This document shows positions 12,320 to 58,100 of a DNA stretch of 64,000 nucleotides, in pieces. Each line of letters begins with the position of its first letter. Within the stretch, counting starts at the first letter, position 1. This DNA comes from Verrucomicrobiaceae bacterium (lineage in GTDB: Bacteria > Verrucomicrobiota > Verrucomicrobiia > Verrucomicrobiales > Verrucomicrobiaceae). The notes beneath the pieces are model-generated. The model saw nothing but the letters and a program-made list of their open reading frames with translations, searched no databases and was not told the DNA's origin. The stretch lies in assembly GCA_016795465.1 (NCBI GenBank), contig JAEUHK010000124.1, forward strand, positions 1 to 64,000. The letters are read 5' to 3'. The position numbers and the translations under genes were made by a program.

Positions 12320-13840
12320 TCACTTCTTCTTTTTGCCCATCATGAGGGTCAGGAGCAGGACCAAAACGACGGCTCCACCAGCCACCATGAGAATGGTGTC
12401 CATGCTGATCGCGCCCTCTTCCTCGGCTGGCGGGGCCTCATCGACCGGAGCGGGAGCGGGAGCCACTGCGCCCGGCTGGACGGCTGGAACAGGTGCCACA
12501 GGGGCAACGCCAGGTTGAACAGGAACTACGCCAGGCTGAACGGGGACGGCTCCGGGCTGGGGCATCACGCCGGGTTGTGTGGGGACAACGCCAGGCGTCG
12601 TCGCAGGGGCTGCTGCACCACCAGACATGGCCAAGGCACGGGCCACGGCAGGGTCCATTCCGGGAGTGGCAGCGCCATTGACTGGCACTGCTCCGGGGGC
12701 GCCCGCAGGCGTCACGAGTGCGCTCGCATTGGCAGCCTGCTGCTTGGCAGCAAATTCGGCACGCTTGCGGGCAAAGCCATCGCGATAAATCTGGAGGATG
12801 GGGCCATACTCTTGGTTGGCCGAGGCAGCTTTGTAGGCCTCCAGCAGGGCGAGTTCGCCCTCCACGATCTTGTCGTTGTAGAAGTGCAGGGTGGCTTGAT
12901 GAATCGCATCGGTGATCTTGGACACTTGGGCGACATTGATCTTCTGAAGCCTTGTCTTCTCCTCAAACACGGCCTTTTGCAGTTCCTGTAGGCGCTTCAG
13001 GTTGTATTTATAGGTGGTCACCCACTTGCTCTCCTTGCGTTCGACGTCATAGCGTGAATTGGCCTCCTGGACCTCACGCTCAATGGCCGCCTTGGAGCGG
13101 GAAAGGTCCGGCTCGACGAGCCTCTTCATATTGTCATCACGCTGCTTCTGAAGCACCGGCTGGTCCTTGATCATCTGGGAGAGCTTGGCGTCAAAGCTCG
13201 TGAGGATGGCGAGGGCCTCCTCGACGGCTTTCGGCCAATGAACAGACGCTATGTGCAGCCTCTTGGGGCTGGAGAGCTGCTCGAACTCCCTCAGCGCACC
13301 ACTGTAATCACCAGCGGTGGCCTTCTCATTCATGGCTTGCACAATGGTGTAGGCATCGATGTTGTATTTTTCGGCCTTGGCATCCTGCGGGGTGAGCCAA
13401 CGGCCCTGCATCTTGATGCCGCCGGCCACCACTTTCTCCTTCTCCTCCTGGAACTCATCGACCATCTTCTTGATCTCATCCGCCTGGGGAGTGCCGGGAT
13501 AGCGGTTGATGAAGGGACGCAAACGATCCTGGATGAGCTGCTCATACTTTTCAGCGGTCAGCAGGTCGGCGGTGGGCAGCAGCTTGCGCAGTTCCTTGAT
13601 CTCCACCTCCTCCGGCTTCTCTTTGAGAATGCCGCCCGGCGCGATTTCCGCCATGGGGATGAATTTTTCATCCATGATCTTGGCGGTGACCTTGTACTTC
13701 ATGAGCACTCCTTCGGGCTTTTGCTCCAAAATGGTGCCTTCGAGCTTCTTGCCGTCCTTCAGCGTGACAATGTCAGCGCGAAGCGTGCCGGTAATGGAGG
13801 TGGCGAGGGCCAGGACGAGCAGGGAACGGCTCAATTTCAT
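12320..13840 (-). CDS. PTPDL-family exported, C-terminally membrane-anchored protein
   Basis: A 506-residue protein with a signal peptide (MKLSRSLLVLALATSITGTLRA). An N-terminal small beta domain (DIVTLKDGKKLEGTILE) leads to LLPTADLLTAEKYEQL, the position of the PTPDL(L) signature that names a family known from Verrucomicrobiota. A long charged helical region, probably coiled coil, spans about residues 130-350. A Pro/Ala/Val tract with repeated QPGVVPVQPGV-like units follows at about 370-470. The C-terminus is one transmembrane helix with a short KKKK cytoplasmic tail, so the protein likely spans the periplasm from an inner-membrane anchor. Function is unknown. A strong terminator follows. 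Confidence 0.85.
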   Translation of the reverse strand: MKLSRSLLVLALATSITGTLRADIVTLKDGKKLEGTILEQKPEGVLMKYKVTAKIMDEKFIPMAEIAPGGILKEKPEEVEIKELRKLLPTADLLTAEKYEQLIQDRLRPFINRYPGTPQADEIKKMVDEFQEEKEKVVAGGIKMQGRWLTPQDAKAEKYNIDAYTIVQAMNEKATAGDYSGALREFEQLSSPKRLHIASVHWPKAVEEALAILTSFDAKLSQMIKDQPVLQKQRDDNMKRLVEPDLSRSKAAIEREVQEANSRYDVERKESKWVTTYKYNLKRLQELQKAVFEEKTRLQKINVAQVSKITDAIHQATLHFYNDKIVEGELALLEAYKAASANQEYGPILQIYRDGFARKRAEFAAKQQAANASALVTPAGAPGAVPVNGAATPGMDPAVARALAMSGGAAAPATTPGVVPTQPGVMPQPGAVPVQPGVVPVQPGVAPVAPVPAVQPGAVAPAPAPVDEAPPAEEEGAISMDTILMVAGGAVVLVLLLTLMMGKKKK

Positions 13841-20991: not shown

Positions 20992-22443
20992 TCAGGGCTG
21001 CCCGAGGCCGCCGTCATTCTGGAAAGCAGCATCCATGGGCAGATCCCCTCCGGGCTGCACCCGCACTTTTCTGGCCGTGATGGTGCCCTGTGTGCCTTGA
21101 AAGCCCGTCACATTCAGCGTGCCTTCAATCTCAGCCGCGCCTGCGACAGAAACCGGTGCGGCCAACGACACGCCGCCGGTAATCGTGGCCGGACCATTGA
21201 CCGTCAGGCCGCGGCTGATGGTGGCGGTGCCCAGCACATTCAGCGCCTCGGGCGGGCTGGTGTCCGCATGATTTTTATGCCGGATCGTTGTGCGCCCGCT
21301 GAGCTGCACTTCTAAGGCATTGCTCTTGTGCGGGTTCAACTCGGGGTGGAACCACTCGGTGTAAGGCGAAACCCACGCAGGCGGGAGACCGTTGCCAATC
21401 ACAAAGAGCAAATCCCCTGGCAGCCCGGGCGAGGAAAAGTCATTCCACTGCCCCAAAACGACCTGCCCCGGTCCACCCGTTTTGAGGCCGTAGCCCATCA
21501 AGGCCGTCCTGTCATGCACCGCAGTGGACCAACTGCCGGTCGCAAACGAACTCAGCCCGGCAGCCATGATATTCGGGCCACCCAAAGCCACGGATGAATC
21601 CCCCACAGACCACGCCCAAAAACCCAAGGCCATTGAGGTCGAGCCGCTGGCAAACGTCCAGGCACCAATCGCCGCAGAGGCGTAGCCTGACGCCACATTC
21701 CCCTGCCCCGATGTCAGGCTCGCGCTGCCGCTGGCCGTGCTTCCGATGCCAAACGCTGCGGAGGCGTAACCACTGCCCAGAGTCCCATCCCCCATCGCCA
21801 GCGACCCCGCATCGCTCTGTGTCACCACCTGCCGTCCATTCAAAGTGATCGTGCTCGTCGCCGGATTGAGCACGATCTTCTTCGTCGCATCCGCCGGATC
21901 AAACAACGTCAGCGCATTGTCCGCCCCGCCGAGGCGCATGATGGCCGCGCTCCGCAGCGAGATGTCCTCCGACAAACCCGAACCCGAGAGCGGGCGGTGC
22001 CAAGTGTAGTGAAGCGGGCTGCTGCCCGTGATTGGCGAGGCCTGGGTGCCCTCCACATAATCCGTGAAAAACTCCATGCCCGGCAGGCTGCCCGAAGGAT
22101 TCAAGCGGACCAACCCGCTCCAGTCCTGGCGGCCCAGGCTGCTCGTGGCCTCACGCCCCGTGTTGAGAAACAGGCCACCCGGTGTCAACGCCGAGCGGGT
22201 CAGGTAATCGCCCCCAGGCAAGGTGACACCCATCTGGGCCTCAATCTGCCCTGGATTGAGGAATGATTTGAGCAACCCACTGCCATCGAGCGTCACGGCA
22301 TCGGTGTTCGCTGGTGGCGGATTCACCAGCAGGTTTCCATTGATGGTCGTGAGGTCATTCAACGTTTGCTGCGCGAAAACCGGGGTGGCGAGCATGCTGC
22401 CCAGCACGAAGAGGCGGTAGAGACAGGTTTGATGTGTTTTCAT
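20992..22443 (-). CDS. YadA-head/Hep_Hag-like surface fibre protein
   Basis: A 483-residue secreted protein (signal peptide ending LATPVFAQQ). Residues about 215-320 contain repeated 14-residue-type units with the small-residue pattern of trimeric adhesin heads: GYASAAFGIGSTASGSAS, GYASAAIGAWTFASGSTS, then VGDSSVALGGPNI. These fold as a left-handed beta-roll in YadA-type trimers. No C-terminal YadA anchor barrel was found. The C-terminal part has phage-tail-like 'LNVLGTATISRGLTVNG' repeats common in verrucomicrobial fibre-like proteins. A trimeric extracellular fibre is a reasonable inference. Confidence 0.78.
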   Translation of the reverse strand: MKTHQTCLYRLFVLGSMLATPVFAQQTLNDLTTINGNLLVNPPPANTDAVTLDGSGLLKSFLNPGQIEAQMGVTLPGGDYLTRSALTPGGLFLNTGREATSSLGRQDWSGLVRLNPSGSLPGMEFFTDYVEGTQASPITGSSPLHYTWHRPLSGSGLSEDISLRSAAIMRLGGADNALTLFDPADATKKIVLNPATSTITLNGRQVVTQSDAGSLAMGDGTLGSGYASAAFGIGSTASGSASLTSGQGNVASGYASAAIGAWTFASGSTSMALGFWAWSVGDSSVALGGPNIMAAGLSSFATGSWSTAVHDRTALMGYGLKTGGPGQVVLGQWNDFSSPGLPGDLLFVIGNGLPPAWVSPYTEWFHPELNPHKSNALEVQLSGRTTIRHKNHADTSPPEALNVLGTATISRGLTVNGPATITGGVSLAAPVSVAGAAEIEGTLNVTGFQGTQGTITARKVRVQPGGDLPMDAAFQNDGGLGQP

Positions 22444-22506: not shown

Positions 22507-23388
22507 TCACCCGCCGACGCTCACGCTGGCCTCCGCGCTCCACTGGCCGACCTGGTGGTCGTCCACGCGGTAGATGGCGCGGTATTTCCATTTCGTGAGG
22601 GCGGCGGGGAAAGGGGTCGTGTCCAGGTAGCCGGGCGTGGTGTCGTAGGTGAGGACGACCCAGCCTTTGCCATCGGCGCGGTCCACCTGGATTTCGCATT
22701 GGTCCAGGAACTTGGCGAGGCCCTGCCAGCCCCAGCCGATCTGCACGCCAGCAGCGGAGACGATGGCGGTGATGTCCGGGCGCACCAGCTCGAAGTCTGG
22801 CGTGGTCTCCACGGAGCCGAGGATGCCCAAGTCCACGCACATCGGCTCCGGGCAGGCATCGTTTTCCTTCAACTCGGCAATGAGATCAAAAATACGGGAC
22901 AGCGCCCCGGCGGGACGTGCCACCACGCCATCCGGCAGCGCGGGCGGCGTATGCACCGGGAGCACCAGCGGGCCGCTGCCGCTCATCGCCTGCTCCAGCG
23001 CGTTCGTGGCGGCTTTCCCATGTGTGCGCACGGATTCCAGCCAGGAGACAAGCAGATAAACCAGCCAGCGGGCATCCGCGATGATGTCCGCCACGCGTGG
23101 GGCGGGCAGGCCGAGGGCGGCGGCGTGAAGGGCCAGCTTCAGGCGGAAGTTTTCCAGCCAGACGGCCTGGTCTGCCTGGCGTGTGGGGAAGTAGTTCTGG
23201 CGTTTCATACGGGTGTGACGGTGGGTGGTGGAGGATGGATGAGGAGGAATCACATAGGGCACGAAACCGGGATCACCCGGCTCACGGGCATAGCCGAGGC
23301 CATCGGGGCCGAAAAAGAGGTTCGGGTCGTCGAAGGTATAACCGCGGCCGGTGTGGGGATTGATGGCATCGAAGTGGAGCAGGCGCAT
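22507..23388 (-). CDS. Hypothetical protein with C-terminal FN3-like domain (two family units fused in frame)
   Basis: Two starts are plausible. The ATG at 23208 gives a 233-residue protein beginning MKRQNYFPTRQADQAVWLEN. The ATG at 23388 adds 60 residues containing YTFDDPNLFFGPDGLG and REPGDPGFVPY, which look like a separate short family but read through in frame without a stop. The main part is helical for about 120 residues, then beta-rich with an FN3-like end (EIQVDRADGKGW, YDTTPGYLDTTPF, KWKYRAIYRVDDHQVGQWS). Similar proteins recur in Verrucomicrobiota next to fibre or collagen-like genes, but function is unknown. It is upstream of and probably co-transcribed with the YadA-head-like gene, with a 21-bp DNA array beyond it. 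Confidence 0.72.
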   Translation of the reverse strand: MRLLHFDAINPHTGRGYTFDDPNLFFGPDGLGYAREPGDPGFVPYVIPPHPSSTTHRHTRMKRQNYFPTRQADQAVWLENFRLKLALHAAALGLPAPRVADIIADARWLVYLLVSWLESVRTHGKAATNALEQAMSGSGPLVLPVHTPPALPDGVVARPAGALSRIFDLIAELKENDACPEPMCVDLGILGSVETTPDFELVRPDITAIVSAAGVQIGWGWQGLAKFLDQCEIQVDRADGKGWVVLTYDTTPGYLDTTPFPAALTKWKYRAIYRVDDHQVGQWSAEASVSVGG

Positions 23389-23638
23389 AAGGTCGCTGCG
23401 CTCCCGCCGTGAGCGGTAGGCAAAGGGCGTGGAGCCCTTGAAATCCCACGCTGTGCCGTGTGAGCTGTAAGGGGCGCGGATTCCGCCTCGCACGGTGTTG
23501 GGGCTTTCCTGCAGGGATCGTCCTCGTGCTCGTTCTCCCCCTCGTCCTCGATTCTGGGAGCCTGTTCCATCGTGTTTCGAGGGTGAAAAAGGACGGAAAG
23601 GGCCTCTCCGAGCCCAAAAAGCACCGAAACGGAGAAAA

Positions 23639-23866
23639 GGGGGCGGTTTCCTGGAAAAAGGGGGCGCTGAAAAACGCTCCGGGATGGCCCCCAGAAAGAA
23701 AGGGGGCGGCGAAAAACCCGAACGGGGCACCCCCATGGAAAAAGGGGGCGCTGAAAAACGAAAAGGGGGCGATCCCGCCGAAAAAGGGGCTGCCCCCGGA
23801 AGAAATGGGGGCGCTCACCTGAGAAACGGGGGCCATCCCGCAGAAAAAGGGGACGCCCCCTTTTTT
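23639..23866. repeat. Degenerate 21-bp phased tandem array (array A)
   Basis: The motif (A)4-5(G)4-5CG recurs with its closing C at 23644, 23665, 23707, 23728, 23749, 23770, 23790, 23812, 23833 and 23854. That is multiples of 21 bases with at most one base of drift over eleven phases (one unit, near 23686, is degenerate). The last unit forms a perfect 9-bp A5G4/C4T5 hairpin (23844-23852 with 23857-23865). Shorter GGGG/CCCC palindromes sit near 23729 and 23791. On the minus strand the array would encode proline/phenylalanine heptads (APFFxxx), but all minus frames are open, so coding is not supported. Confidence 0.8.
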
Positions 23867-23952
23867 CAGCTCGCAAGCCCGAGAAACCCGCGATGCTCCC
23901 AAAAAACCGGCTCGTGCTTGAAAAGGGCTTTTCGCCTGAATGCGCCGCCTTA

Positions 23953-23986
23953 CTGCCCTCTGCCCTCTGCCCTCTGCCCTCTGCCC
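23953..23986. repeat. Heptanucleotide tandem repeat (CTGCCCT)n
   Basis: Almost five perfect copies of the unit CTGCCCT lie in a row, 34 bases in all. It is a simple-sequence tract outside any supported gene and may vary in copy number between strains. Confidence 0.9.
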
Positions 23987-28838: not shown

Positions 28839-31574
28839 CTACTTCTCCTTCGTCTGGAAGACGAGGCGGAGGCAGTCGAGGCGCAGGGCGGCGGTGTCGA
28901 GGGCGGCTTCGATCTCGGTCATGTGCTTCTGGAGGGCTTCGATCTCCTCTGGGCGCACATGGTCGTTGAGCTGGCGCAGGTCTTCGAGGCGGTCGATCTC
29001 GGCCTGGAGCTGCTGGCGCATCGTTTCCTTCGCGGTGGTCACGAGCTTGGCGAGTTCCTCCTCGGCCAGCTTGCGGGCTTTGGCGAGCATGGCGGGGAAG
29101 AGCTTGTTGCGGATGGCTCCTTTTTCAAAGAGGCCGGTGGGCTGGCTCTTTTCGAGCTTCACCTCCTCCAGCGGATCGTTCTCGCGCCGGTCGGCCTGCG
29201 TGTGATCGACGATCATGCGCAGCGGCGAGGGCGAGAGGAAGCGGTCCACATGCAACGCGGATGGCGCGACGCATTCGACGATGAAATGTGTTTCGAGGAA
29301 GAGGCACTCGCTCTTCGGATGCTTGCACACGGCGAAGTTGCTGTTCCCATCCTCGCTGCCGAGTAGCAGATCGAGCACGCCACGCACGAGCGGATGGTCC
29401 TGCGTGAGGAAGGCGATGTTTTCGCGGCTGAGAGCCCGTGTGCGGTCAAAGGTGACGGTGAGGCCATCCTCGGGCAGGGAAGGGAAGCGGTCGGTTTTGA
29501 TGTCCTCGGGCTTCAGGAAGTAGGTGCGCGGGGCGTGCTCCTCGACGTGGAGGCCGAAGTGATCGACGAGGCGGATGAAGAAGGCCTCGAAGTCGAGGCT
29601 GTCATCGTGCTCGCGGATGGCGTCGATCACGCTGGCGGCACGCTCAGGCTTGCAGGAGTTCAGCTCGAGCAGGCGGTCGTGGCCGCGCTCGAGTTTTTGG
29701 GTCACCTGCTGGCGCAGTTTCTGCGTTTCTTTGAGAAAGGCGGTGAAGCGCTTCGCATCAAAATCGGCCAGCAAATCCTGCAGGCTCTCCGCGAGGCCTT
29801 GAGCGATCTCGGTGGCACCGTGGAGGTTTTTCTCGAGAGCGTTCAAACCTTCGTGATACCAGCGGGCGAGCACCTCCTCGGCGGTTTGCGTCACAAACGG
29901 CACATGAATGTGAATCGTGCTCGTCTGGCCAATGCGGTCGAGGCGGCCGATGCGCTGCTCGAGCAGCTCGGGATCACGCGGAAGGTCGAAAAGCACCAGA
30001 TGATGCGCGAACTGGAAATTGCGGCCTTCGCTGCCGATCTCGGAGCAGAGCAGCACGCGGGCACCATCCTCATCGGCGAAGAACGCAGCATGGCGGTCAC
30101 GCTGCACCATGGTGAGACCTTCGTGGAAGAGGGCGGCGTTGATGTTGATCTCACGCAGGAGCTTCTCGTGGATCTCGCCGGCCAGCTCGCGGGTGCGGCA
30201 GATGAGCAGCACCTTTTGATCGCCGAGTTGTTTGATGAGCGCGGCGAGCCACTTCACTTTGGCTTCGAGGGCGTCGCTGCCTGCGTCGATGGGGGCGAGG
30301 TGCGCTTCACGCTGGGGAAAGCCGGTCAAAGCAGCTCGCGTGTTGCGGAACATGACACGGCCGGTGCCGAACTCGTCGAGCATCGCGGCGATGAGCTTGT
30401 CGCGACTGCCTTCGACCTTCTTTTTGGTCTCTTTGAGCAGGTCGCGGAGGTGCGTGGATTTCTTCGCGAAGAGCTTCTCATCCTTCGCGGCGAGGTTTTT
30501 GCCCTCGACGAGGCGATCGACCGCGGCGGCGACTTCTTCGTAGTGGCTGCTTTCCTCGAGGAACTGGGTCAAATCCGCGTAGCGAGCCGGATCGAGCAGT
30601 CGCAGGCGGGCGAAGTGTCCTTCAGGTCCAAGCTGCTGCGGCGTGGCGGTGAGCAGGAGAAGGCCGGGCACTTTCGCCGCGAGTTGATCGACGAGCTGAT
30701 ACTCGGCACTCGGCTTCTCGGGGCTCCATTCGAGATGGTGCGCCTCATCGACAACGAGCAGGTCAAAGCCGGCCTCAAGGGCTTGCTGGGCTCGATTGGT
30801 AGCATTCGCGAGGAATTTGGTGCTCGCGAGGATGAGCTGGGATTCGAGGAAGGGATTGCTCACTTCGCCATTGGCTTCGAGGGACTCGCAGCGGTCCTCG
30901 TCGTAGATGGCGAAGAGCAGGTGGAAGCGGCGGAAGAGCTCGACGAACCACTGATGCACCAGCGCCTCCGGCACAAGAATGAGCACACGCTCGGCACGGC
31001 CGGTGAGCTGGAGGCGATGCAGAATGAGGCAGGCCTCGATGGTCTTGCCAAGACCGACTTCATCCGCCAGCAGCACGCGTGGCACGAGACGGCCCGCCAC
31101 CTCGCTGGCGATGTACATTTGATGTGGCAGCAAATCGACGCGACCACCGCAGAAGCCACGCACCGGGCTCTGGCGCATCGCCGCCCGGCGTTCCAGCGCC
31201 TCGACACGCAGGTCGTAGGCACGCAAATCGTCCACCTGGCCGGCTTTGAGGCGATCCTCCGGCTTCGAGAAGGTGATCGTGTCTGAAAGCTCCGCCTCGC
31301 TGATCTCGCCGTCGTCGCTGAGGTAAAAGAGGATGTTCTGGCGCTCCTCGACGCTCGTCACATTCAGCGAGCGACCATCGTGCGTCTTGACCGTGTCACC
31401 CGCTTGGAATTTCACGCGACGCAGCGGCGCGGCGGTGAGCGAGTAGGTGCGGGCCTGCTGCGCGGCCGGGTAGTAGATCTGCACGCGGCCAAATTCACAC
31501 TTGCCGACGACGCCAATGCCAAGCTCGGGCTCAGTGTCACTGACCCAACGCTGTCCGGGGAAAGGTTGCTCCAT
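28839..31574 (-). CDS. rapA: RapA-type SNF2 helicase, RNA polymerase recycling factor
   Basis: About 911 residues from the ATG at 31574 (MEQPFPGQRWVSDTEPELG, the usual RapA start); the frame is open to 31643. Two N-terminal SH3-like Tudor/KOW-type units cover roughly residues 1-120. The SNF2 ATPase shows ADEVGLGKTIEA (Walker A), VVDEAHHLEW (motif II) and TATPQQLG. The second RecA-like lobe ends with EGRNFQFAHHLVLFDLP and EQRIGRLDRIGQ. A long C-terminal region with a coiled coil near the end (about residues 830-900) completes the family length. RapA binds RNA polymerase and frees it from stalled post-termination complexes. It begins about 107 bases from the collagen-like gene upstream. Confidence 0.95.
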   Translation of the reverse strand: MEQPFPGQRWVSDTEPELGIGVVGKCEFGRVQIYYPAAQQARTYSLTAAPLRRVKFQAGDTVKTHDGRSLNVTSVEERQNILFYLSDDGEISEAELSDTITFSKPEDRLKAGQVDDLRAYDLRVEALERRAAMRQSPVRGFCGGRVDLLPHQMYIASEVAGRLVPRVLLADEVGLGKTIEACLILHRLQLTGRAERVLILVPEALVHQWFVELFRRFHLLFAIYDEDRCESLEANGEVSNPFLESQLILASTKFLANATNRAQQALEAGFDLLVVDEAHHLEWSPEKPSAEYQLVDQLAAKVPGLLLLTATPQQLGPEGHFARLRLLDPARYADLTQFLEESSHYEEVAAAVDRLVEGKNLAAKDEKLFAKKSTHLRDLLKETKKKVEGSRDKLIAAMLDEFGTGRVMFRNTRAALTGFPQREAHLAPIDAGSDALEAKVKWLAALIKQLGDQKVLLICRTRELAGEIHEKLLREININAALFHEGLTMVQRDRHAAFFADEDGARVLLCSEIGSEGRNFQFAHHLVLFDLPRDPELLEQRIGRLDRIGQTSTIHIHVPFVTQTAEEVLARWYHEGLNALEKNLHGATEIAQGLAESLQDLLADFDAKRFTAFLKETQKLRQQVTQKLERGHDRLLELNSCKPERAASVIDAIREHDDSLDFEAFFIRLVDHFGLHVEEHAPRTYFLKPEDIKTDRFPSLPEDGLTVTFDRTRALSRENIAFLTQDHPLVRGVLDLLLGSEDGNSNFAVCKHPKSECLFLETHFIVECVAPSALHVDRFLSPSPLRMIVDHTQADRRENDPLEEVKLEKSQPTGLFEKGAIRNKLFPAMLAKARKLAEEELAKLVTTAKETMRQQLQAEIDRLEDLRQLNDHVRPEEIEALQKHMTEIEAALDTAALRLDCLRLVFQTKEK

Positions 31575-31681
31575 GTTCTGGGGGTAAAAGGGGCGCGGAG
31601 AGTAGAATGCCGCACCGGGAGTGCAACGCCACAAATCGCTCATTTTGAGGGCGAAAAATGTGCGCCGCCTGTTCCTCCCTG

Positions 31682-32215: not shown

Positions 32216-32692
32216 TTACGGGGCGGGGGGCGGTGTGGGCTGCTGGCGGCTGCGGCGGGCGAAACGCTGGCCGAAGGCTTGCACAAAGGCGTCATACTGG
32301 CCGCTGGTGTTCAGCGCCTTCGCCACGCGGTAGATGTCGAGCGCGGCCACATAGGCATCGCTCAGCGCGGACATGCAGTTGTCGCCGGCCATTTCGGCGG
32401 TCTGGTTGGCTTTGGCGCAGATGGGCAGGTATTGGCGGCCGAGGGCGATGTCCTCGGCGAGGGCGGCCAGATTGACATCGGCGGGCATGGCACCGGGGTT
32501 TTGCTGGGCGAACTGGAGGGCCTGGTCGAGCAGGGTCATGTCGGCAGCTTCGATCTTGGTGAGGCGGCGGCGGTCCTCCGGGGTGAGGGAGTGGCTGCTG
32601 TCGGCCATCTTGGTCTGCGCGGCGGTGAGATCGGCGAGGATCGCATCGCGCTGGGCATCGGTGAGGGCGGCGGAGATGAGGTTCTGGTTCAT
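32216..32692 (-). CDS. Helical hypothetical protein of the fibre-associated type
   Basis: A 158-residue, Ala/Gln-rich, almost entirely helical protein from the ATG at 32692 (MNQNLISAALTDAQRDAILA). The frame is open further up to 32974 but that part reads as low-complexity sequence. It has the pattern TPEDRRRLTKIEAADMTLLD and a basic C-terminus (FARRSRQQP). Similar small proteins are recurrent in Verrucomicrobiota genomes next to tail-fibre or collagen-like genes, but no function is known. It is the first gene of a probable two-gene unit with the collagen-like protein, and it lies below the 42-bp hairpin array. Confidence 0.72.
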   Translation of the reverse strand: MNQNLISAALTDAQRDAILADLTAAQTKMADSSHSLTPEDRRRLTKIEAADMTLLDQALQFAQQNPGAMPADVNLAALAEDIALGRQYLPICAKANQTAEMAGDNCMSALSDAYVAALDIYRVAKALNTSGQYDAFVQAFGQRFARRSRQQPTPPPAP

Positions 32693-32928
32693 GGGGCGGC
32701 GTGGGTTGCTGGCCGGCGGCCCTGGTTCATCAAGCCGCAAACCGCTGTCGAGCCTGAGTCCAGTGTCGAGCCGAGCCATGTTGGGTTGGGTGAGCGGGAG
32801 GTTGAGTGCCCGCTGGTTGGAGCGGATTGCACCAAAAACGCCGCCGGAACTCAAGAATATAATTTCCACGATGGAGCGGCATTCGGGAAAAAAGGTGCTC
32901 GCGATGTGCTCGGAGGGCTTCCATTTGA

Positions 32929-33082
32929 GAAAATTTCGCAAATGGACGGGAAATTTTCTGAAATGACGGAGCAAAAAGGCCGGCTGGAGGACCTTTTTGC
33001 TCGATCAGAGGTGAAAAGAGCGCGGCGCACCGGCCTTTTTTCACTTCCCGCCGGGCAAAAAGGACATCGGGAGCACCTTTTT
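32929..33082. repeat. Array of four hairpins spaced exactly 42 bp (array B)
   Basis: Hairpin arms are 32929-32937/32950-32958 (9 bp), 32969-32979/32992-33002 (11 bp), 33011-33020/33035-33044 (10 pairs, one G-U) and 33057-33063/33076-33082 (7 bp). Their centres fall at 32943.5, 32985.5, 33027.5 and 33069.5, so each is 42 bases from the next. Three of the four loops are exactly 12 bases. The arm sequences differ between units while pairing is kept. A decayed unit is visible near 32886-32922. Confidence 0.85.
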
Positions 33083-33302
33083 TCTGAAACGGCGGTGAAA
33101 CGAGGCGGAATGGCGGCCTTTCAATTCGGTGCCGAAGGGCGCAGAGGGTGCGCCCCCGGTAGTTTTACCGACAAGATTGGAACGGAGAAAAGGATTTACA
33201 TGCCCATGCCGCCAAGATACAAGCCGTGCATCAATCTCTCACCGCCTATCGAATAGCTTTTTCTCTCCATCGAATTCTGCGCAGTCGGAATTCTTCAAAC
33301 GG

Positions 33303-33515: not shown

Positions 33516-34268
33516 ATGAAACGACACCTCAAACACCCAATCCGAGGCCTGTTGAGCCTTCTGTTCCTAGCTCCGATAGCCGCAGCCTTCGGCCAAGACA
33601 CCTCGAAGCTGATTCCCAATCCGCGCATTTTGTTTTCGAGCACGGTGCGCAAGGCGGATGGCGGGACGACGACTTATCAGCACATCGAGCCGCCCACGGC
33701 GGAGCAGCTCGCGGCGCTGGCGGCGGCCCGGCTGGCGGCGAATCCGGCTCCTTCCACCGCGCCTGTGCTGCCGAGGCTGCAACTGACGGCGCGGGTCTAT
33801 GAGGGTTCGCTCACGGAGCTGAAATGGTCCCATCAAGGCGTGGAATGTACTGCTTGGAGCAGCGTGGATTTTCGGTTGTTGGAGGCGATTCCGCAGTTTG
33901 AGCAGGATGGTATCACACGGAGGCTTTCTTCCATTACGATCACGCATCGCCAGCCTCCGGCGGGGGTGGTTTCGGCACGTCCGTGGCCGCAGTTTCCGGC
34001 GGAGGTGCTCGCAGCGGTGCCGCAGGGTTTGCGGGCGTGGTATATCCTGACCGAATTTGGCGGCACGGCGGCGATGGAGGCGGAGGCCTGCGCGGCTTTG
34101 GATGCACTGCACCGCTATGTGGAGGTGCATTGGGAGGCTTTGCAGGCTCGCAGGACGGAACGTGAGGCTCAAAAGGCCGCGGAGGCGGCTTACAAGCTGG
34201 CGCACCCTGAGCCGCCCCCGGCTCCGACGAACACGATCATCCAGTTTTGGAAGGAGGAGCGGCCATGA
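33516..34268 (+). CDS. Hypothetical exported protein
   Basis: About 250 residues from the ATG at 33516, which gives a good signal peptide (HPIRGLLSLLFLAPIAAAFG); upstream in-frame sequence to 33369 is not protein-like. The mature part has an Ala-rich helical segment (EQLAALAAARLAANPAP), a beta-rich centre containing ARPWPQFPAEVLAAVPQG, and a charged helical end (ARRTEREAQKAAEAAYKLA). No family was recognised. The stop overlaps the ATG of the metzincin-like gene as ATGA, making this the first gene of a three-gene coupled operon. Confidence 0.75.
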   Translation: MKRHLKHPIRGLLSLLFLAPIAAAFGQDTSKLIPNPRILFSSTVRKADGGTTTYQHIEPPTAEQLAALAAARLAANPAPSTAPVLPRLQLTARVYEGSLTELKWSHQGVECTAWSSVDFRLLEAIPQFEQDGITRRLSSITITHRQPPAGVVSARPWPQFPAEVLAAVPQGLRAWYILTEFGGTAAMEAEACAALDALHRYVEVHWEALQARRTEREAQKAAEAAYKLAHPEPPPAPTNTIIQFWKEERP

Positions 34269-36418
34269 GAACGATCCAAGCATGGGGTCTTATGATGCTG
34301 GTGATGGTTTCGGCTGCTTTTGGGCAGACGGCGTCGGACCTCGGTGAAGGCCTGAGGGCTGAACTCACCAACACGCCGGGCGTGACGGCGATCAAGTGGT
34401 GGGGGAAGGCGGGGCGCACTTACTTTGTGCAGAGCAGCGAGACGCTGCTGCCGGATAGCTGGCAATACATGCCGGTGGTGGAGGCGGGCGCGGACGCGGT
34501 CTGCACTTGGAACCTGCAAACCTCCGCCTCGAAGATGTTTGTGCGGCTGGTCTTTACCGATCAGGCGTTTTCCGGCAGCGCGGCGGACGCGGACTTCGAT
34601 GGTGACGGGCTGACGAATGGACAGGAGGTCGCTGTGGGCGGGCCGGGGACGGACCCAGTGGGAACGGATACGGATGGTGACGGCGCACCTGACGGAGCTG
34701 AATACAGACAGGGTAGCAACCCACGTGACAGTGCATTGAAACCGATGGCAGGCGAACCGGAGCAGTACAACTATGCGCCGACCTTGATACTTGGGAGGCA
34801 GACGAGGCACCTCACCAACAGCTGGGGCAAGTCCAAAGATGCCCAGAATCAAACCGTTGAATGGGGTTCCCTCTCCTGGCAGACGCCTGGATTAAGCAAC
34901 CACAGCCTCAACTACAATGACTTTGCCGAGCGCTACACCGCCAAGCTGTCCGAACCCGTGATGGACTGGCTGGCTTCCGGCTTCGGCGAACCGACGACGT
35001 CCTATGCCATCGGCTCTTGTCTATGGCGGTACAGTTCCCAAAACAACGGAGACACGCAGTCTCATTATGTCAGTGTGAACGACGCACGAATCGTCCTGCG
35101 GACGTACCATTCGGGAACGGCGGCCCAATGGGAAATACCCCGGACAGTGATGCGTTATGTGCATGAAGGCTCTGAAAAGCCACCGTATGCCTACAACTAT
35201 ACCAACGTGGAACTTGCAACCATGACCGTCGGCCCGCTTGCCAGCATGTCACAGCCCATGGATCTAATGCCGCGCCCCAGCCAGGACAGGGGCACGACAG
35301 AAGGCGCGGGCCTGATTGGGATCTCCTCATTTGCCGGGCTGTCCCTTGATGCCGAAACGTCCAACACAATTGTCCCCAAGCTTGAACCTTGGTTCATGCT
35401 CCCTGTGGGTGAGACCCGGACGGTTACGGTCAGCAACGGCGTGGCTAACGACGATACCGTCTATCAACTCTCCGGCGGGGGGCTGCCCGGCAGTATCCTC
35501 ACAGGCGGGAGCATCAGCCTCAGCAGCACGGCGACGGATGACATTACGGGTGTGCTGCGTGTTGGCTACCGGCCGGCTGGAGGAACCGCGGTTTTTGCCC
35601 AAGAACCCTTGCTCAACATCGCGGTTTACACCCGGAGGGTGCTGGACATCAACATCATCCCGGTGGCCTACGTGGCGGCCAGCGGAACGGTCGTCCCGCC
35701 TGCGCACCTGCCCACGGAGGCGGCTGCAAAGAGCTATCTGGACAGCGTGTATCTGCCGCAGGCGAACATCGAATGCCGGGTGACCATCAAGCCGGTGCAG
35801 CAGATCGAATGGGACAACCGCGGAGGATGGGAGAACTCCAACGGGTCCATCTTCGGCGCGGGTGATGGCTGCTTCACCTTCGTCGATACCACCGTCGTCC
35901 CCCTGAGCGTGCCCCGCGGGGACCTTAGCACCCTGGAGGAGACAGAGCTCATGGAGCAGTTGATGTACCATCGCACCCCCTCCGTCATTGCCAACCCGAC
36001 GACAACCCTGAATGTCCTGTGGATCGTGGCACCCAAAGGGCTGTATCACATTGACTGGGCGCGGGAGGAGGACCAGCCTGATTTCACCGAGGCAACGTAT
36101 GCGGACGTGGTCGGCTACTGCATGAAGGGGCCGAAGTGGTTTGGGCAGTATGTCTATGTGCTGGACCGTGCACCACACCCACTCGAGCCGCAGGCAACGG
36201 TACTTTATACGCTGGCGCATGAGATCGGCCACGCGCTGGGTCTGGACCACTGTACCGAACAAAGAACCCAGGCTTACTCCCGCTTCTCTGAAAATGAACA
36301 CCGCCTGATGACCGGGCGCTACGGCCCTAAGCGTGGCACCGGCCCCAAGAAGATGGTCCACTGGGAGTGGGACCGAGTGAGGCAGTCTAGTTTTGCAAAA
36401 ACCCCTGGAAATTCATGA
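34265..36418 (+). CDS. Secreted metzincin-like putative metalloprotease
   Basis: About 717 residues from the ATG at 34265, which overlaps the previous stop (ATGA). A signal peptide (GLMMLVMVSAAFGQ) leads to an N-terminal 'VQSSETL' verrucomicrobial-type beta domain. Calcium-binding Asp repeats follow at about residues 108-145 (DADFDGDGLTNGQE and DTDGDGAPDGAEY). A long region of unknown fold precedes the C-terminal catalytic-like motif HEIGHALGLDHC, the zinc-binding HEXXHXXGXXH of metzincins. The region after it (EHRLMTGRYG) supplies a methionine in the place of a Met-turn. Protease activity and substrate are unproven. Possible roles are surface-protein processing or polymer degradation. Confidence 0.83.
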   Translation: MRTIQAWGLMMLVMVSAAFGQTASDLGEGLRAELTNTPGVTAIKWWGKAGRTYFVQSSETLLPDSWQYMPVVEAGADAVCTWNLQTSASKMFVRLVFTDQAFSGSAADADFDGDGLTNGQEVAVGGPGTDPVGTDTDGDGAPDGAEYRQGSNPRDSALKPMAGEPEQYNYAPTLILGRQTRHLTNSWGKSKDAQNQTVEWGSLSWQTPGLSNHSLNYNDFAERYTAKLSEPVMDWLASGFGEPTTSYAIGSCLWRYSSQNNGDTQSHYVSVNDARIVLRTYHSGTAAQWEIPRTVMRYVHEGSEKPPYAYNYTNVELATMTVGPLASMSQPMDLMPRPSQDRGTTEGAGLIGISSFAGLSLDAETSNTIVPKLEPWFMLPVGETRTVTVSNGVANDDTVYQLSGGGLPGSILTGGSISLSSTATDDITGVLRVGYRPAGGTAVFAQEPLLNIAVYTRRVLDINIIPVAYVAASGTVVPPAHLPTEAAAKSYLDSVYLPQANIECRVTIKPVQQIEWDNRGGWENSNGSIFGAGDGCFTFVDTTVVPLSVPRGDLSTLEETELMEQLMYHRTPSVIANPTTTLNVLWIVAPKGLYHIDWAREEDQPDFTEATYADVVGYCMKGPKWFGQYVYVLDRAPHPLEPQATVLYTLAHEIGHALGLDHCTEQRTQAYSRFSENEHRLMTGRYGPKRGTGPKKMVHWEWDRVRQSSFAKTPGNS

Positions 36419-49117: not shown

Positions 49118-52100
49118 TCAGTTGCTGGTGACGCGGAGGCGGACGAATTTGGCTCCGCCGAGATCGCTGGACGGCGTGACGCGAACGGTGACCGTCTCGG
49201 TGGTGCCATCGCCGGTGGGAACGGCAGATTTTTCGACGACGCTGGCTCCGGTGTCGTCCCAGGTGAGGAGATCGGTGCTGGTCTCGACGATGTAGTTCAG
49301 GCCCGCTCGCTGGATGCGGCGGCGGAATTGCATGCAGAGATACTTTTGGCCGCTACCGCCATCGGTTTCAGTGAGTGCCGCGGGGAGCATGCTGCGGGCA
49401 TTGGCGGAGCCTGCGGGGATGCCAAGAGCGTGCTCGAGGAGTGCATCTATGCCGTTGCTTTCCGGATCGCCGCCAGGCGTGGCGATGCGGAAGACGGTGA
49501 CGGTGGTGGTGGCGGTGTTGGGCGGGACGGCATGGTCCGCCGCAGTGACGGTGATGGAGTTCGTGCCATCGGTGAGGCCGGTGAGGGCTGAGGTCCAGTT
49601 CGCGAAGGCGTTTGATGTGCTGGCGGCATTGCCCGCAGCAGTGACGCTGACGACTCCGCTGGTGGCATCACTGGCGGTGCCGGCGAGGGTGGCTGTGGCG
49701 GCTGTGGTGGTGAGTTGCGGGACGGTGATGACGGGTGGCGTGGCGTCCTGGGTGGAGGTGACGACGGGGGACCATGCTCCAGGGAAAGCGAGGACACTTT
49801 GTGGAATGAAGCTGAGCTGCCAATCGTGGAGGAGTGGGGTGAGGGAGGGATTGGTGGAGGAGAGATTCGCACGAAGACGAAGCGCAGGTGCGGTGATGTA
49901 GCCTAGATTCGCACCGTTGATGACGTTACTGGCGAGAACGGCACTGGTGGTAGCGTCGAGCACATCGATCGTGAGAGTCGTGCCTGATGGGACAGTGGTG
50001 GTATAGCGGAGGGTGCCCCAGGACTGGCGGACGCTGGGGGAGATGATCGGGGAAAGAACGGTGCCGCTGGCGAGGTGGTTCCTCGGAGTGATGGTGAGGC
50101 TGAGGTCATCAAAGAGTGCGGCAGTCCCCGTGACGAAGGCGCGGAGGCCAGCACGGCCAGCGACGTAGCGTGTGTCGTAGAAACTGAGATTCGCGTTACC
50201 GGCGCTGGTGAGGATGGGAGTTTCTGAGACAGCTCCGGCGACGACGGAGACTTTCCAGGCGTTGAGGGTGAGATTGGGGCCTTTGGCGCTGAAGCGGAGC
50301 TTGAAGATGTCGCCCGCAGCGACGGTGACGGAGGGGAAGCTGGTCACGGTGCCGTTGAGGTAGCCGAGAGAAATGTTGGCGAGGGTGGGTGAGCTATGAC
50401 TGATGTTAGCGAGGTAGCCATAGGGCGTGGTGGTGGTGCCGCTGGTGGTGGTGCCGCCGCGTAGGATGAGCCCACAACTCGTGCTGCTGGCAGGTGTCTC
50501 GATGCAGAGGTAACTTTCGATACTGCCATCCGCGAAGGTGTTGGAGGCGGTGTCAGCGGCGAGGGCCCAGCCATAGGTGCCGGTGATGCGACCTTCGAGA
50601 TCGCCGCCTTGATTGATGGGGAGAGGCGGGGTGGTGTTCGGGCCGGTGGTGAGGGAACTGCTGGTGAAAAGATAGCCGGAATTTCCGCCGAGGACGTCGA
50701 AGTAGCTGCTCCAGGCATTGCCCGTGAGAGCATTAAAATTTTCCGTGGTGGTGATGGAGAGTGCTGGGCTGGAATAAAGTGCAACACTGCCACCATGACT
50801 GCCGCTGGTGGTGCCAGAGTGAGTGGAATTCGAAAAATCTCCCCAGTCAGTGTCTTGCCAGAAATCACTGGTATAGAAGGCGTTGTTATGAGCACGGACG
50901 CGGTAGTAGTAGAGGCGCTCTTCGGGGAGTATGCCGGTGGTGACCATGGTGCTGGTAATGGTGGCATTTCCTGTCCAGGCGAGCGGTGAGAAAGCCGTGC
51001 TGGTAGCGGCCTGGATTTCGTAGCGATTTACATTGGTGTTGGAGGGGGCCCAGGTGAGCGTATTCGTGCGTCCGCCAGTGAAAGCGGGTTCGGTAACAAG
51101 GATGGGTTTTTGTGAGGCTTGAATGGTGAGGCTGCTCACGGTTCCGGAGCGGCCTGGACGATCCTGAGCACGGAGGATGGCGTCTTTGGAGAGTCCATTG
51201 ATGGTGACATTTCCAGTCCAGGCACCCGAGGTGAGGGTGGCATTCTTCGGCGTGATTGTGAGGTTCGTGTATAGCAGCAGGCGCAACTGTGGCTGTGACA
51301 TCGTGCCGAAAGGAGTCGGGGATGTGCCTGACCATGTGATGGGAGCACTGAGGGTGCTGTTGTCTGTGCCGTACACAGTCATGAGTGCCTCGGCAGGATC
51401 GTGACGTGAGGAGATGATGTTGGTGGCAGCGGTATTATCGAAGCTGATATCCACCATGAGGCTATTGACGCCATCGTAGCTGAAAAGCGTGGAGAAAGGG
51501 AAGGTGTGCCAGCCATTGCCCGTGGTGGTGAAAGTGGAGGAGTGAACGGTCGTCCAGCCCGTCGATTCCCAGCTTGAGCCAGCCGCGTAGCTGGTGAGAG
51601 CGGTATGACGGAGGCGGATGGTGAGATTGTTGAAAACGGTGCCACTGAGGCCAGTGAGGTTCAGAGAGAGTCCTAGGATCTGCTGCGGCTGCCTACCGAG
51701 CTGCTCAGCCGTGTAGATGGTTTGAGTGCGTGCATCATGCGAGCTGCCGTTGAAGGGTGTGCTGGAGAGTATAGTTCCACGGCCGACGAGGCGCTCTCCC
51801 GAACCAGGAGCGCGGATGCTGAGGTCAACGGGGCCACTGTAGCTGGTATCCGCAGCGCCACTCGGTGTGACGGCGCTGATGGTGACGCTGTAGGGCGTGC
51901 CAGAGATGAGTTCGCGGCTCGTGGGTAGTCCACTGATGAGGAGGCTTGAGGCCTGTCCCTGCGCAGAGCCGAGATCAAAAGGGGTAGAGAAGCTGCTCGC
52001 TGAGCCGCTGAGAGCCTCGAGCCGCAAACCTGTGCCCTGGCCGCTGAGGGTGAGATCTCCTGTCCACATACCCGCTGTGAAGTTTCCCGTGTTCGCAGGT

Positions 52101-55100
52101 GTGAGGGTGACGTTTTGTGCCGTGCCGAAGCGGATGTCAGGGCGTGTGACGGAGGGGGTTCCGAGTGGTGTGAGGCCGCTCCAGCCGAGGGGATCGCCAT
52201 CCGCACTGTCAGAGAGGTAATGGAGCGTGCGGTAGGCGGTGCCTGCCGTAGCCTGGACGATGCCAGCGGCGCTGGGGGCATTGCCATCGAAGCTGATGTC
52301 CACGAGCACGTTCTGCCTGCCATCATAGGGGAAGGGAGTGGTCAAAGGAATGCTGTCCCAGCCGGTGGCCGTGATGCTGTGCGTGCCGCTGTAGCAGACA
52401 GTCCAGCCAGTAGATTCCCAGCTCACATTGCTGGAGGCGTAGTTCTGCAGCGTGGTGTGCTTCATGCGCACGGTCAGATTTGTGAGTGGATGGCCTGGCA
52501 GGGTCGTTACGTTGAAAGCGATGGAGTCGATGCTCCTCGCCGCGCCGATCTCCTCAGCGGTGTAGAGGCTCTGCGTGCGGCCATCGTGAGAGGAGGTGCC
52601 GAACAATGGCGTGAAGGAAGTATCTCCGACACCTACCTCACCCGTGCCATGCACTTTGAGAGAAACGGGGTCGGTATGGCTGGCGACGGTATTGCCGTTC
52701 ACATCCTGCGCGGTGAGAGTGATGGGGATGGGCTGGTCGGAGGTGACCTGAGGTGGCAGGCCGGAGAAGTGGAATTTGGCGATGGTGGCAGGGATGATGT
52801 TGAAGGCATTGCTGCTGCCGCTGGCGGCCGCGGCGGCATCCGTGACGGTCAGGACGGCATTCGTGGCCAAGCTGCCGAGGGTGACGGCGGTGGTGCATGT
52901 GCCTGCGGTGAAGGCTCCCGTGCTGGCGGGAGAGGGTGTGAGCGGGGTGGCACCATCAGCGGCGGTGAGAGCGGGATTGCCGGTGTAGGTGGTGATGGTG
53001 GCGTTGTCGATGGCGCGGGCGGTGAAGGTGACGTTGAAGGGCACATCCCGCACCTGCGGGCCTGGAATGGTGGAGACGAGGAAGCTGTGCAGCTCGTTAT
53101 CAGCGATGGAAATGGTGGCCGAGCCGCTATCGGCATGGGTGTAGGCGGCGGAGATGTGGACGTTTTGCGCCCCGTCCTTCACTGTGTCATTGACCACGTT
53201 GAGCGTGAAAGCGGCCGACAAGGTTCCGGCTGCGATGGTGACGGTGGCTGCGGCGGGTGCCGCCTGAGCAGGCACGCTGGAAGACAGATTGATCACGGTG
53301 GCGGCACTTTGCACCGATGAAATCGAGACCGTGCCTGGAACCGTGCCCACAGACTCCGAGACCGAGGCTGGAAGGGTGACCGTGAGCACTGGCAGGGAGA
53401 GGATGAATGCGGCGGAGACACCCGTGGCGCTGCCACTGGTCGCAGTCAGCGTGGCGCTGCCACTGCCCAGCACAGAGACATTGCCGGTCCACGCCCCACC
53501 CGAGAATGCCCCCGTGGCGGCAGGGGTGACAGACGCGGCTGGTGTCGATAGAGACGCGGTGCCTGTGAAGCCGGTGGCGGGCTGGTTGTCCACCGTGCGG
53601 GCATTGATGGTGACCGAGAAGGGGGCTCCGGAGATGCGCGGCGAGGAGATGGTGTTCCAGGTGAAGTAGCTGAGGTCGTTGTCGTTGACGATGATGTTCG
53701 TGCTGGCGCTTGGGACGCCGGCGACACTGACGGTGATGGTGGCAGTCTGGGCACCGTCTTGGAGCGTGTCGTTGATGATGTTGAGCGTGAAATTCGCCGA
53801 AGTGGAGCCGGCGGGGATGGTGACGGTGGCAGCCGCCGGATTCGCCTCGGTGGTGTCATTGGAGGAGAGATTTACCGTGACGGCAGAGGCCTGGGCGGCG
53901 CTGATGGTGACCGTGCCGGAAACGCTTCCGGCGGATTCGGCGGCGGCGGCTGGCAGCGTGAGGCCGAGGGTGTAGGATGGGATGTCATTGACGTTGAAGC
54001 TGTTGGAAAGGCCGGTGATGGAGCCGCTGGAGGCCTGGAGCTGGATGTTTGTCGCAGGGGCGGCAAGCGTCAGATTTCCAGTCCAGACACCACCGGAGAA
54101 GGCACTGGTGACGATGGGGCTAAGTCCCACGCTCGTGCCGGAGGCCACGCCGAGTCGAATGTCAGTAATCCTGCTGTCTGGAAAGGCGGCAGGGACGAGA
54201 CCGGACCAAGTTAAGGGGTCAGCACCGCTACTGGTGTAGTAATTGATTGTCCTCGTGCTTCCAGACCTTGTCGTGCCGGCGACCGTTGGCCGATTGGCCG
54301 TCGTGCTGGAGGCACGGTAACTCATGTCCACCATGAGATTACTCACACCATCGTAGGCAAATCCGGTGGTGAAATTAAAAGTCGCATAGCCAGCAGTACT
54401 GAGTGAGGGACTACCCTGATACACCGTGGTGAAACCACTGGATTCCCAGATGCGGTCGCTGGCATCGGTGTAACCCGTGCGTGAGGTATGTTTGAGACGG
54501 ATGGTGAAGTCCGTTACGCTCACGGTGTAGGGAACGGTAATGTTGATCGCCAATGAGGTCAGTGTGCCCGCGCCGCCCAACTCACTGGCTAAATGCACCT
54601 GTTGTGTTCTGCATTTGCTGAAGATGGTGTTGAAGGGGACCCAGCATGGATCTGCATTGCTCCCCACGTCGCGGATAATGCCGGAGCCTGCGACCGCAAG
54701 GTTCGCCACCGAAGTGAAGTCCGTGGCTGTGTTCCCCGCGACATCTTTTGCGGTGATGGTCACGGGAAAGGCTGTCCCACTCGTTTGAGGCGAGGTGATG
54801 GTGCTCCACACGAACTGGCTGGCCGTGCCTGTCCCCACAGCAAAGGCATTGCTCGATCCTGAGGCGACGGCGGCAGCATCCGTGAGAGTCAATACCGCAT
54901 TGGTGGCAAAGCTTCCCACGGTCACTGCGACCGTGCGGCTTCCATTGCTAAAACTTCCCACACTGGTCGGCGTGACGGTCAGCGCCGTGATGCCATCCAG
55001 GCCGGTCAGGGCGGGCGTGCCGGAGTAGTTGGTGATGGTGGCGTTGTTAATGTCCCGAGCGGTGAAGGTGACGTTGAAGGGCTGGTTGCGGACTTGCGGG

Positions 55101-58100
55101 CTGCCGATGCTGGAGAGGAGGAAATTCGCCACGTCATTGTCCGTGACGGTCAGCGCCCGCGTGCCGGTGGTGAAGCCTGCGGAGGCGGCAGAGATGGTGA
55201 GGCTCTGCGAGCCGTCTTTGATCGTGTCATCGAGGATGGTGATGGTGAAGGTCATGCTGCTGGCTCCCGCAGGGATGGTGGCCGTGGCGGGCACGGTGGC
55301 CTCGGTGGTGTCCGTGGAGGTCAAAGTGACCGTGGTGGCATTCTGCACAGGATTGGAGGCCGTAATGGTGGCGGATAGGGTGCCGCTGCCTTCCGCCACG
55401 GAGCTGGTGAAGCTGAGGCCGAGCGTGGCGGTCTCGTTATCCGTGATGGAGATGCTGGCGCTGCCCCCGGTCCAGCCGGCCATGCTGGTGCTGACGGTCA
55501 CACTTTGAGCAAAATCGATCAGCGCATCATCCACCGGCGTGATGGCAAAGGTGGCGCTCGTGCTGCCTGAGGGGATAGTGACGGTGGAGGGGACCAAAAG
55601 CTCCGTGGAATCACTGGAGGTCAGCGGCAGGGTGATGTTCGCTCCTGCGGCGGCTCCGAGGGTGACGGTGCCGGTCGCCGCAGCGGCATTTTCCGCCAAC
55701 ATGGCGGGAAGCGTGAGCGAGATGGTGGTGGTTTCATCATCCACGACGCTGAGCGTGCTGACGCCTGAATCGTAACCGGATGCCGAAGCGGTGAGAGTGC
55801 TGGTTTGAGTGCCATCGAGCAGTGTGTCATTAACAATAGACACAGGGAAGGTCGTGCTGGTCTGTCCGGCGACGATGGTGGCCGTGGCCGGGACGGTGGC
55901 GGCAGCGGTGTTCGAGGAGTTCAGCGCCACGATGAGATCGGTCACGGGCGCGGTGGCGATGCTGAGCGTGGCGGTGAGCGCAGCGCCACCCTCTGTCACA
56001 GAAGCCGCGTGATTGAGAGTTAATGCCCCCAAAGCAACGGCATTAAACATCGAGCTCATTCCCCCCACCACGCCAGAGCTGGCCCGCAGGCGAATACCAG
56101 TCCCAGAAGCATTCACCGCAACCTGCCCTGACCAGGCACCTCCTGAAAAACTTACCGAGCTGGAGGGGGAAATGGCAATGGGCAGGCCCGTCGAGAATCT
56201 CACGTTGGGCATGGATGACTGGGTGAAATTGTTGGCGTAGCCCCAGTTGTAAGGATCACCGTATCCCCAGGCTTTTAGATTGGCAGCGGCCATGTGCCTG
56301 GAGGGTGATACCAAGGTAGATTGGCATATCCCGGCCGTGGAAGAGCCGGCATTGTCAAAAACCATGTCCACGAGGAGGTTTTGCACACCGTTGTAGGCGA
56401 AGGGTGTGTCGAATACAAACTCACGCCACCCTGTGGCGGTGATGCTTTCCGAAGATCGTTGATAGACGGTGATGAGGCTCGTGTTGTCGAAACTGGTGCT
56501 GGATGGATAGGAGCCGGTGGCTGTGTGCTTCAATCGTATGCCAAAACGTGTCAGGGGCAGCGCAGGAGGCGTCGTGATGTTCAAAGAGATGCCGGTGAGC
56601 AGCCTCGACCCTCCAATCTCCGAAGGAATGAATATCATCTGGGAGCGGGCGCCATCATAGGAAGTATCCAAAGGCTTTCCGCTCGTGCTCGTGCCGGCGC
56701 CAATCGTCACTGGGGTGGATGGATAAACGGCATCAAGAGACGCAGTGCCGGCGAAGCTCGTGACCGTGTTTTCATAGGCATCCCTGGCGCTAAGGCTTGC
56801 GGCAAAGGGTACGGAGACTGTTTGCGGTGAAGGAACATTTCCCCAGGTGAAATGGTGCAGGGCACCCGCGCCGACGCTAAAAGCATTGCTGCTGCCGGTG
56901 GAGCCGCTGGCGGCATCCGTGAGAGTGAGCACGGCGGCGGAGGCCAGAGTGTTCACCGTGACGCTTTGTGTTTTTTGGCCAGAGCTGAACCCAGACAACG
57001 AGGTCGGTGTGACGCTCAGAACTGTACCGCCTGAGGCCGCCGTGAGCGCCGGGGTGCCCGCATAGGTGGAAATGGTGCTGTTATTGATGTCCTGGGCAGT
57101 GAATGTCACATTGAACGGTGCCCCGCGAACCTGACTGGCGGGCACGGCGGAGACGGCGAAGTGATGCAGATCGTCATCGAGGATCTGGATGGAGGAGGTG
57201 CCGGTGGTAAATGTGGCTGCTGCGGCGCTCACCGTGACGTTTTGCATGCCATCCTGCAGGGTGTCATTCACTGGCGTGAGAGTGAAGAAGCCGGACTGGC
57301 TGCTGCCTGCCGGAATGGTCACGGTGGCAGGCACGGTGAGCTCCGTCGTATCACTGGAGGAAAGGTTGATCATCAGCGCATTCGCCACACTGCCCGAAAG
57401 ATAGACATAGCCGCCGCTGACCACCGGAGCGGCTCCTTCGGAAAGGCTGTAGTAGTAGAGTTGAAGCCAGATTTGCCTGCTTTCATTATCCAGGACTTGC
57501 AAAGTGCCGGTGCCGGGTGTGGAGCCGGCGAGCGTGGCGGTGATCGTGGCCGCGATATTGTCTTCGATGATGTTGTTATCCGCCAGCGTGAGGGTGAAGG
57601 TGGCGCTGCTTTGCCCGGCCGGAATGGTCACGGTGGCAGGCACCGTCAGGCGGGAGAGCATGGAGGAGGCAAGCGTGAGCTTGAGGCTGCCAGCGGCGGG
57701 CGTGGCGAGAGTGACCGTGCCCGTGGCGGTCACCGTGGTGGAGGACTGCTCCGTCATGCTCGCGGGCAGGGTGAGAGTGACAGTGGTCGTCTCATCGTCC
57801 ACCACCGTGTTGCTGGCCGTGGCAGTGGGATAGCCCACCGCCAGCGCCCGCACGGTGACTAGAGCCGGACCGTCGAGCAGGGTGTCGTTCACCGGTGTGA
57901 CGTCGAAGCTCACGCTCGTCTGCCCGGCTGGCAGTGTCACCGTGGTCGGCACGGAGAGATCACCTGGCGTCAAATTCTCCAGCGTCACCGTGACATTCGC
58001 CGCGGGAGCCGTGGAGGCGGTCAATGTGCCACCATTCGTGATGGTGCCCTGCCCCTCGGTCATGCTCGCAGGCAGGGTGAGAGTCAGCGAGCCTCCAGAC

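Follow-up and report, generated by a model that had tools for sequence, protein, structure and literature searches.

The window, the whole stretch of 64,000 nucleotides analysed here, carries two 21-bp arrays. The features needed for the description are the following.

22507..23388, minus strand: LHFDAINP-leader gene, downstream of the second array
23590..23890, no strand assigned: second 21-bp array of the window ("array 1"), units mostly in one orientation, with homologues at L040, L036/L189 and L188
31682..32128, minus strand: collagen-like gene of the MPFDP family (Pfam Collagen, E-value = 9.6e-8)
32216..32779, minus strand: helical-protein gene (ORF), with an inner start at 32692 and a possible start at 32779 that would give the leader MARLDTGLRLDSGLRLD; it adjoins the array
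32866..33138, no strand assigned: 21-bp phased array of about 13 units, the A/T tract changing strand with each unit (from the period-21 fold score and an in-register print)
32922..32965, no strand assigned: hairpin 1, axis 32943.5, 16-nt arms, 12-nt loop
32964..33007, no strand assigned: hairpin 2, axis 32985.5, 16-nt arms, 12-nt loop
33008..33047, no strand assigned: hairpin 3, axis 33027.5
33055..33084, no strand assigned: hairpin 4, axis 33069.5, 12-nt loop

The product of the helical gene is predicted to be all-helical (pLDDT 84). As the first-pass annotation had it, the larger surroundings of the hairpins include this gene and the collagen-like gene, and the array lies upstream of both in the window. 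Beside the collagen-like gene, positions 28839-31643 encode a RapA-like helicase with Tudor and RapA_C domains. Just outside array 1, at 23953-23986, the heptamer CTGCCCT is repeated five times, and a run of this heptamer is also found in the homologue L188.

The array adjoining the helical gene is about 270 bp long and non-coding, with AT-rich patches at 21-base intervals. The first-pass annotation had described it as four stem-loops spaced by 42 bp. These stem-loops are real, their axes fall exactly at the positions given above, and three of them (hairpins 1, 2 and 4) have the 12-nt loops then reported. The spacing is non-random and does amount to whole helical turns, but the basic unit is 21 bp rather than 42. 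The fold score of the array reaches z = 10.8 at period 21 and 6.7 at period 42, and is at most 2.7 at the other periods from 8 to 60; none of 1000 dinucleotide shuffles exceeded 4.9 at period 21, or 7.7 when all periods were considered. Each hairpin consists of two adjacent 21-bp units on opposite strands, which accounts for the 42-bp interval. When the sequence is written in rows of 21 bases, the tracts keep a single column from 32888 to 33121, A-rich and T-rich by turns. They remain in phase beyond the hairpins on both sides (32888-32893; 33098-33100; 33119-33121), and the hairpins themselves fade at the array edges, with poor pairing at axes 32901.5 and 33111.5. The main feature of the element is the 21-bp array, not the hairpins. 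Twenty-one base pairs correspond to two turns of B-DNA.

The arms of the hairpins had also been said to differ in sequence while keeping their pairing. Each hairpin does pair with itself, the complementarity over 10-bp arms being 0.90 within and 0.65 between the four hairpins, but the claim leans mainly on hairpin 1. The arms of hairpins 2 and 4 are interchangeable at 0.9 complementarity, so that a different permutation scores as well as the true pairing. When six hairpins are considered, complementarity within hairpins (0.52) barely exceeds that between hairpins (0.46; z = 0.5).

The A/T tracts of the window array stand in helical phase, and the curvature predicted for it, 236 degrees per 168 bp, is larger than that of all 42,780 sampled background windows (99.9th percentile, 134 degrees; wedge model). 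This array and seven other helical-family arrays (L168, L169, L171, L177, L178a, L180 and L181) are all predicted to exceed the 99.9th percentile, and array 1, L176a, L183 and L106 remain below the 95th. Most helical-family arrays are strongly curved by this prediction, and many leader-family arrays are not. High curvature is thus not universal, and the common denominator of the arrays is the two-turn spacing.

Of 56 genomes searched, 9 carry homologues of the helical gene and 18 carry homologues of the leader gene. Loci were collected by similarity of the neighbouring protein alone and scanned for arrays afterwards. An array was called at 10 of the 17 helical-family loci and at 18 of the 30 LHFDAINP-leader-family loci (9/16 and 17/29 without the window's own loci), against 3 of 360 background pieces of 3 kb; the Fisher p-values of 4e-13 (helical) and 2e-20 (leader) are indicative only, since the loci are interrelated. 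Loci within one family are not independent, L050 and L054 for instance being similar copies. Four of 770 control genes had an array upstream, and two of these four were leader-type genes again. The remaining loci (7/17 helical, 12/30 leader) had no called array, some of them being cut by contig ends. The period-21 score z21 was at least 7 at 12 of the 17 helical-family and 15 of the 30 leader-family loci, and the maximum curvature was at least 150 degrees at 12 of the 17 helical-family loci.

All 18 leader-family arrays are located upstream of the gene, 47-297 bp from the matched region. Examination of the homologues of the 32216-32692 gene, as suggested by the first-pass annotation, returned phased arrays at 10 of 17 loci, but in nine of the ten the array follows the gene rather than preceding it, the window being the exception. 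A collagen-like gene comes next after the array in five of the nine (L168, L169, L178, L180, L181). Overall, the arrays lie upstream of LHFDAINP-leader genes, or usually between a helical gene and the gene that follows it, which is often collagen-like; the array of L124 sits between genes belonging to neither family. An additional locus search yielded called arrays in 4 of 12 loci, and in L190, too, 21-bp units can be made out by eye and in the alignment. Named records bearing arrays include the Verrucomicrobiaceae MAGs L188, L189 and L192, as well as L191, labelled Spartobacteria. The number of HU/IHF genes does not distinguish array-bearing genomes, since G000, G016 and G036 have two each, the usual number among the 37 genomes. 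Non-coding arrays with a fixed 21-bp repeat form a set that accompanies uncharacterised multicopy genes in Verrucomicrobiaceae and related bacteria.

Sampled DNA was also scanned in two ways, by self-identity and by W/S folding after the codon periodicity had been taken out. Period 21 was the commonest in the self-identity scan of G016 and the window. At scores of at least 7, it also led in G000, with 5 of 7 hits, and in G016 (2 of 7, five other periods occurring once each), and it was not seen at such scores in 400 kb from other members of the genus nor in 400 kb from other families of the order. Some scan hits are coding: that at window position 21571 lies within the gene 20992-22443, and those at L094, L097 and window position 12410 look coding by sequence. 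Two pattern searches gave no measure of the spread of the arrays. AAAAAGG...CCTTTTT retrieved mostly ordinary terminator-like hairpins in relatives, and AAAAAG triplets in 387 genomes of the phylum were dominated by apparent lysine-rich coding repeats. Two tandem arrays of period 41, differing in sequence, were noticed at L096:15601-16291 and L115:10096-10486 (in G016 and G000).

The sequence of an array is mostly private to its locus, and the 21-bp period is common to all (median of the best period, 21.00). Examples of units are AAAAAGCTCCGACCTCGGAGC (L056), CCGTTTTCGGAGGTCAAAGCT (L047), CGGTGGCTCGTTCACCGAAAG (L085) and CACGTACCCAGCTTCTGGGTA (L078). Sequence is held in common among orthologous or recently copied loci (L171, L172 and L169; array 1, L040 and L188), and some helical-family arrays have by eye a loose common motif like ACCTTTTT. 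A 10.5-bp harmonic is clear in helical-family arrays and less regular in leader-family arrays. At many loci the arrays comprise about 8-22 modules at 21-bp steps, some arrays not being based on A-tracts.

The array adjoining the helical gene has no alignable homologue, and the comparison of close homologues was made with others. Between array 1 and L040, a close homologue or copy in the same genome, the core (280 columns, identity 0.88) shows one indel event, against 12 in the flank (328 columns, identity 0.79). With L188 the core (290 columns, 0.87) shows none and the flank (361 columns, 0.83) one. In close homologues, the array thus resists indels relative to its flanks. L171 and L172 align without gaps in array and flank alike. 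The species pair L169 and L171 differs by one gap of exactly 21 bp and, in the last unit, by a gap of one base. Among distant pairs, gaps of exactly 21 bp account for 2/11 (L168-L180), 2/9 (L190-L191), 1/16 (L190-L192) and 1/15 (L191-L192) of the gaps, and for 1/38 in the poor alignment of L188-L189; these pairs also carry gaps of other lengths. Copy number can differ between species by whole units. The assemblies end or carry N-runs at or near the arrays of L171, L172 and L037.

The explanation that we favour, while granting it slightly less than an even chance, is that of a phase-dependent cis element working at the DNA level, whose two-turn units on one face of the helix control the adjacent gene. 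The element would act as DNA, its modules lined up along one side of the helix. The modules would bend the DNA, or take side-by-side binding by a putative shape-reading or multimeric DNA-binding protein, or both, and this bending or binding would set the expression of the adjacent gene.

Alternatively, though this is rather unlikely, the arrays may be operators, each unit binding a dimeric regulator at an approximately palindromic site. The regulator might be encoded by the adjacent gene, and its specificity would diverge from locus to locus. The unit consensus has dyad symmetry in many arrays (within-unit complementarity 0.75 in L177, 0.68 in L178a, 0.60 in L169 and 0.58 in L171), and sequences private to a locus yet common to orthologues are consistent with such a regulator. 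However, symmetry is slight in some arrays (about 0.33 in L180 and L181), and no DNA-binding fold is recognised in the helical protein, which has no Pfam family and no PDB match at E-value ≤ 0.001.

The multicopy state of the paralogues, the presence of two similar copies (L171 and L172) in one genome and the contig ends at or near some arrays would fit a substrate for recombination or mobility, by which arrays would aid the duplication, movement or part exchange of these genes. We consider this improbable. The arrays of different paralogues mostly have no common sequence and so could not pair for homologous recombination.

Selection for pairing, as RNA hairpins or as phased cruciforms, was the reading of the first-pass annotation, which expected it to show as covariation. 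Such an RNA could be a leader, or a repeat RNA resembling the antitoxins of type III toxin-antitoxin systems. Folding of 32920-33068 as RNA gives -60.8 kcal/mol (z = -5.1) for the plus strand and -54.2 (z = -3.9) for the minus strand, no shuffle matching the real sequence on either strand; the L177 array reaches z = -7.4, and leader-family arrays are directly upstream of the gene. Against this, the orthologous arrays of two species show a single compensatory change versus 16 that break or make pairs. In RNAalifold predictions for the homologues of array 1, only 2 of 71 predicted pairs changed on both sides, with an unfavourable covariation term of +0.13. The expected covariation failed to appear in these arrays, and the proposal now seems quite improbable. 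Since the pair changes between orthologues are non-compensatory and RNAalifold lends no covariation support, both results coming from other arrays, inverted adjacent units are a likelier source of the strong fold seen in the window array than selection for that fold. The alternation of A-tracts and T-tracts in that array also counts against a single-stranded RNA, as does the occurrence of both unit orientations in a single array, and the only Rfam match was below threshold (25.8 bits versus 48.4). An excess of within-hairpin pairing at 21- or 42-bp axes was sought in 19 arrays and was mostly absent; the highest z values (L176a 3.7, L102 3.6, L177 2.8, L178b 2.8, L106 2.6, L168 2.5, L181 2.5) are inflated, the axis having been picked for each array.

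ToxIN-like repeats were compared in this context. The arrays have another unit length than ToxIN; they also have units in both orientations and no covariation, and no toxin-like family was found, since comparison with Pfam, NCBIfam and PHROGs gave no family that would mark an adjacent gene as an endoribonuclease toxin. The resemblance to ToxIN, a type III toxin-antitoxin system with a repeat RNA (PMC8860590), lies in tandem repeats of family-specific sequence beside a gene.

Functionless minisatellites arising by slippage are a very improbable explanation. Units are near-identical in some arrays (L056, L085, L102), and copy number may vary by whole units, but a single unit length recurs across many unrelated sequences with a preference for two gene families, close homologues conserve the array above its flanks, and homologous arrays align unit by unit without homogenisation. 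Coding for a 7-residue repeat is contradicted and hardly credible: 21 is divisible by 3 and most arrays have at least one open frame, but L171 and L180 have stops in all six frames, codon log-odds are mostly negative, L178b contains a 20-bp step, and no continuous frame joins array to gene, the gene frame having up to 5 stops upstream. The arrays are non-coding.

The phase-dependent DNA element has partial parallels in known systems. Plasmid iteron and centromere arrays are helically phased, repeated protein sites; the arrays described here are likewise helically phased, but there are several per chromosome and their sequences are mostly private. The promoter repeats of HMW1/HMW2 are reportedly short, identical and fast-changing in number, whereas the present arrays are often degenerate, have a 21-bp unit and are stable against small indels in close homologues. 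They share with these Haemophilus tandem repeats, located in adhesin promoters (PMC2424069), a position upstream of surface-protein genes. Another parallel is the curved DNA upstream of Helicobacter pylori sabA, where A/T tracts lie in helical phase, with a single variable T-tract and A-boxes at intervals of 10-11 nt, and geometry is proposed to matter over any single sequence (PMC4081817). Unlike sabA, the present arrays comprise about 8-22 modules, one every 21 bp, at many loci, and some are not A-tract based.

We found no description of such arrays in the open-access papers searched, and the results suggest a new kind of control element. It is conceivable, though doubtful, that they form a class defined by geometry instead of sequence, in which exact two-turn units, each array with a sequence of its own, stand beside members of paralogous families and are read either by way of DNA shape or by a protein specific to the array. 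As a rule, it is a conserved sequence that identifies regulatory DNA. Here the letters are mostly free and the spacing is kept, and the arrays mark little-known gene families in an understudied phylum. They offer a natural test set for the question of whether selection in bacteria can act on helical phase and curvature by themselves. If the arrays are read as DNA, disruption of phase should matter and a change of letters should not.

Some other features of the window and of the gene families may be recorded. Positions 34265-36418 encode a protein that contains a TSP3 repeat and weakly matches metzincin-like proteases, and an ORF of 4946 codons extends from 49118 to 63958. Seven loci (L193-L199) match the LHFDAINP query over its first ~40-65 residues only, and the leader seems to be joined to differing protein bodies.
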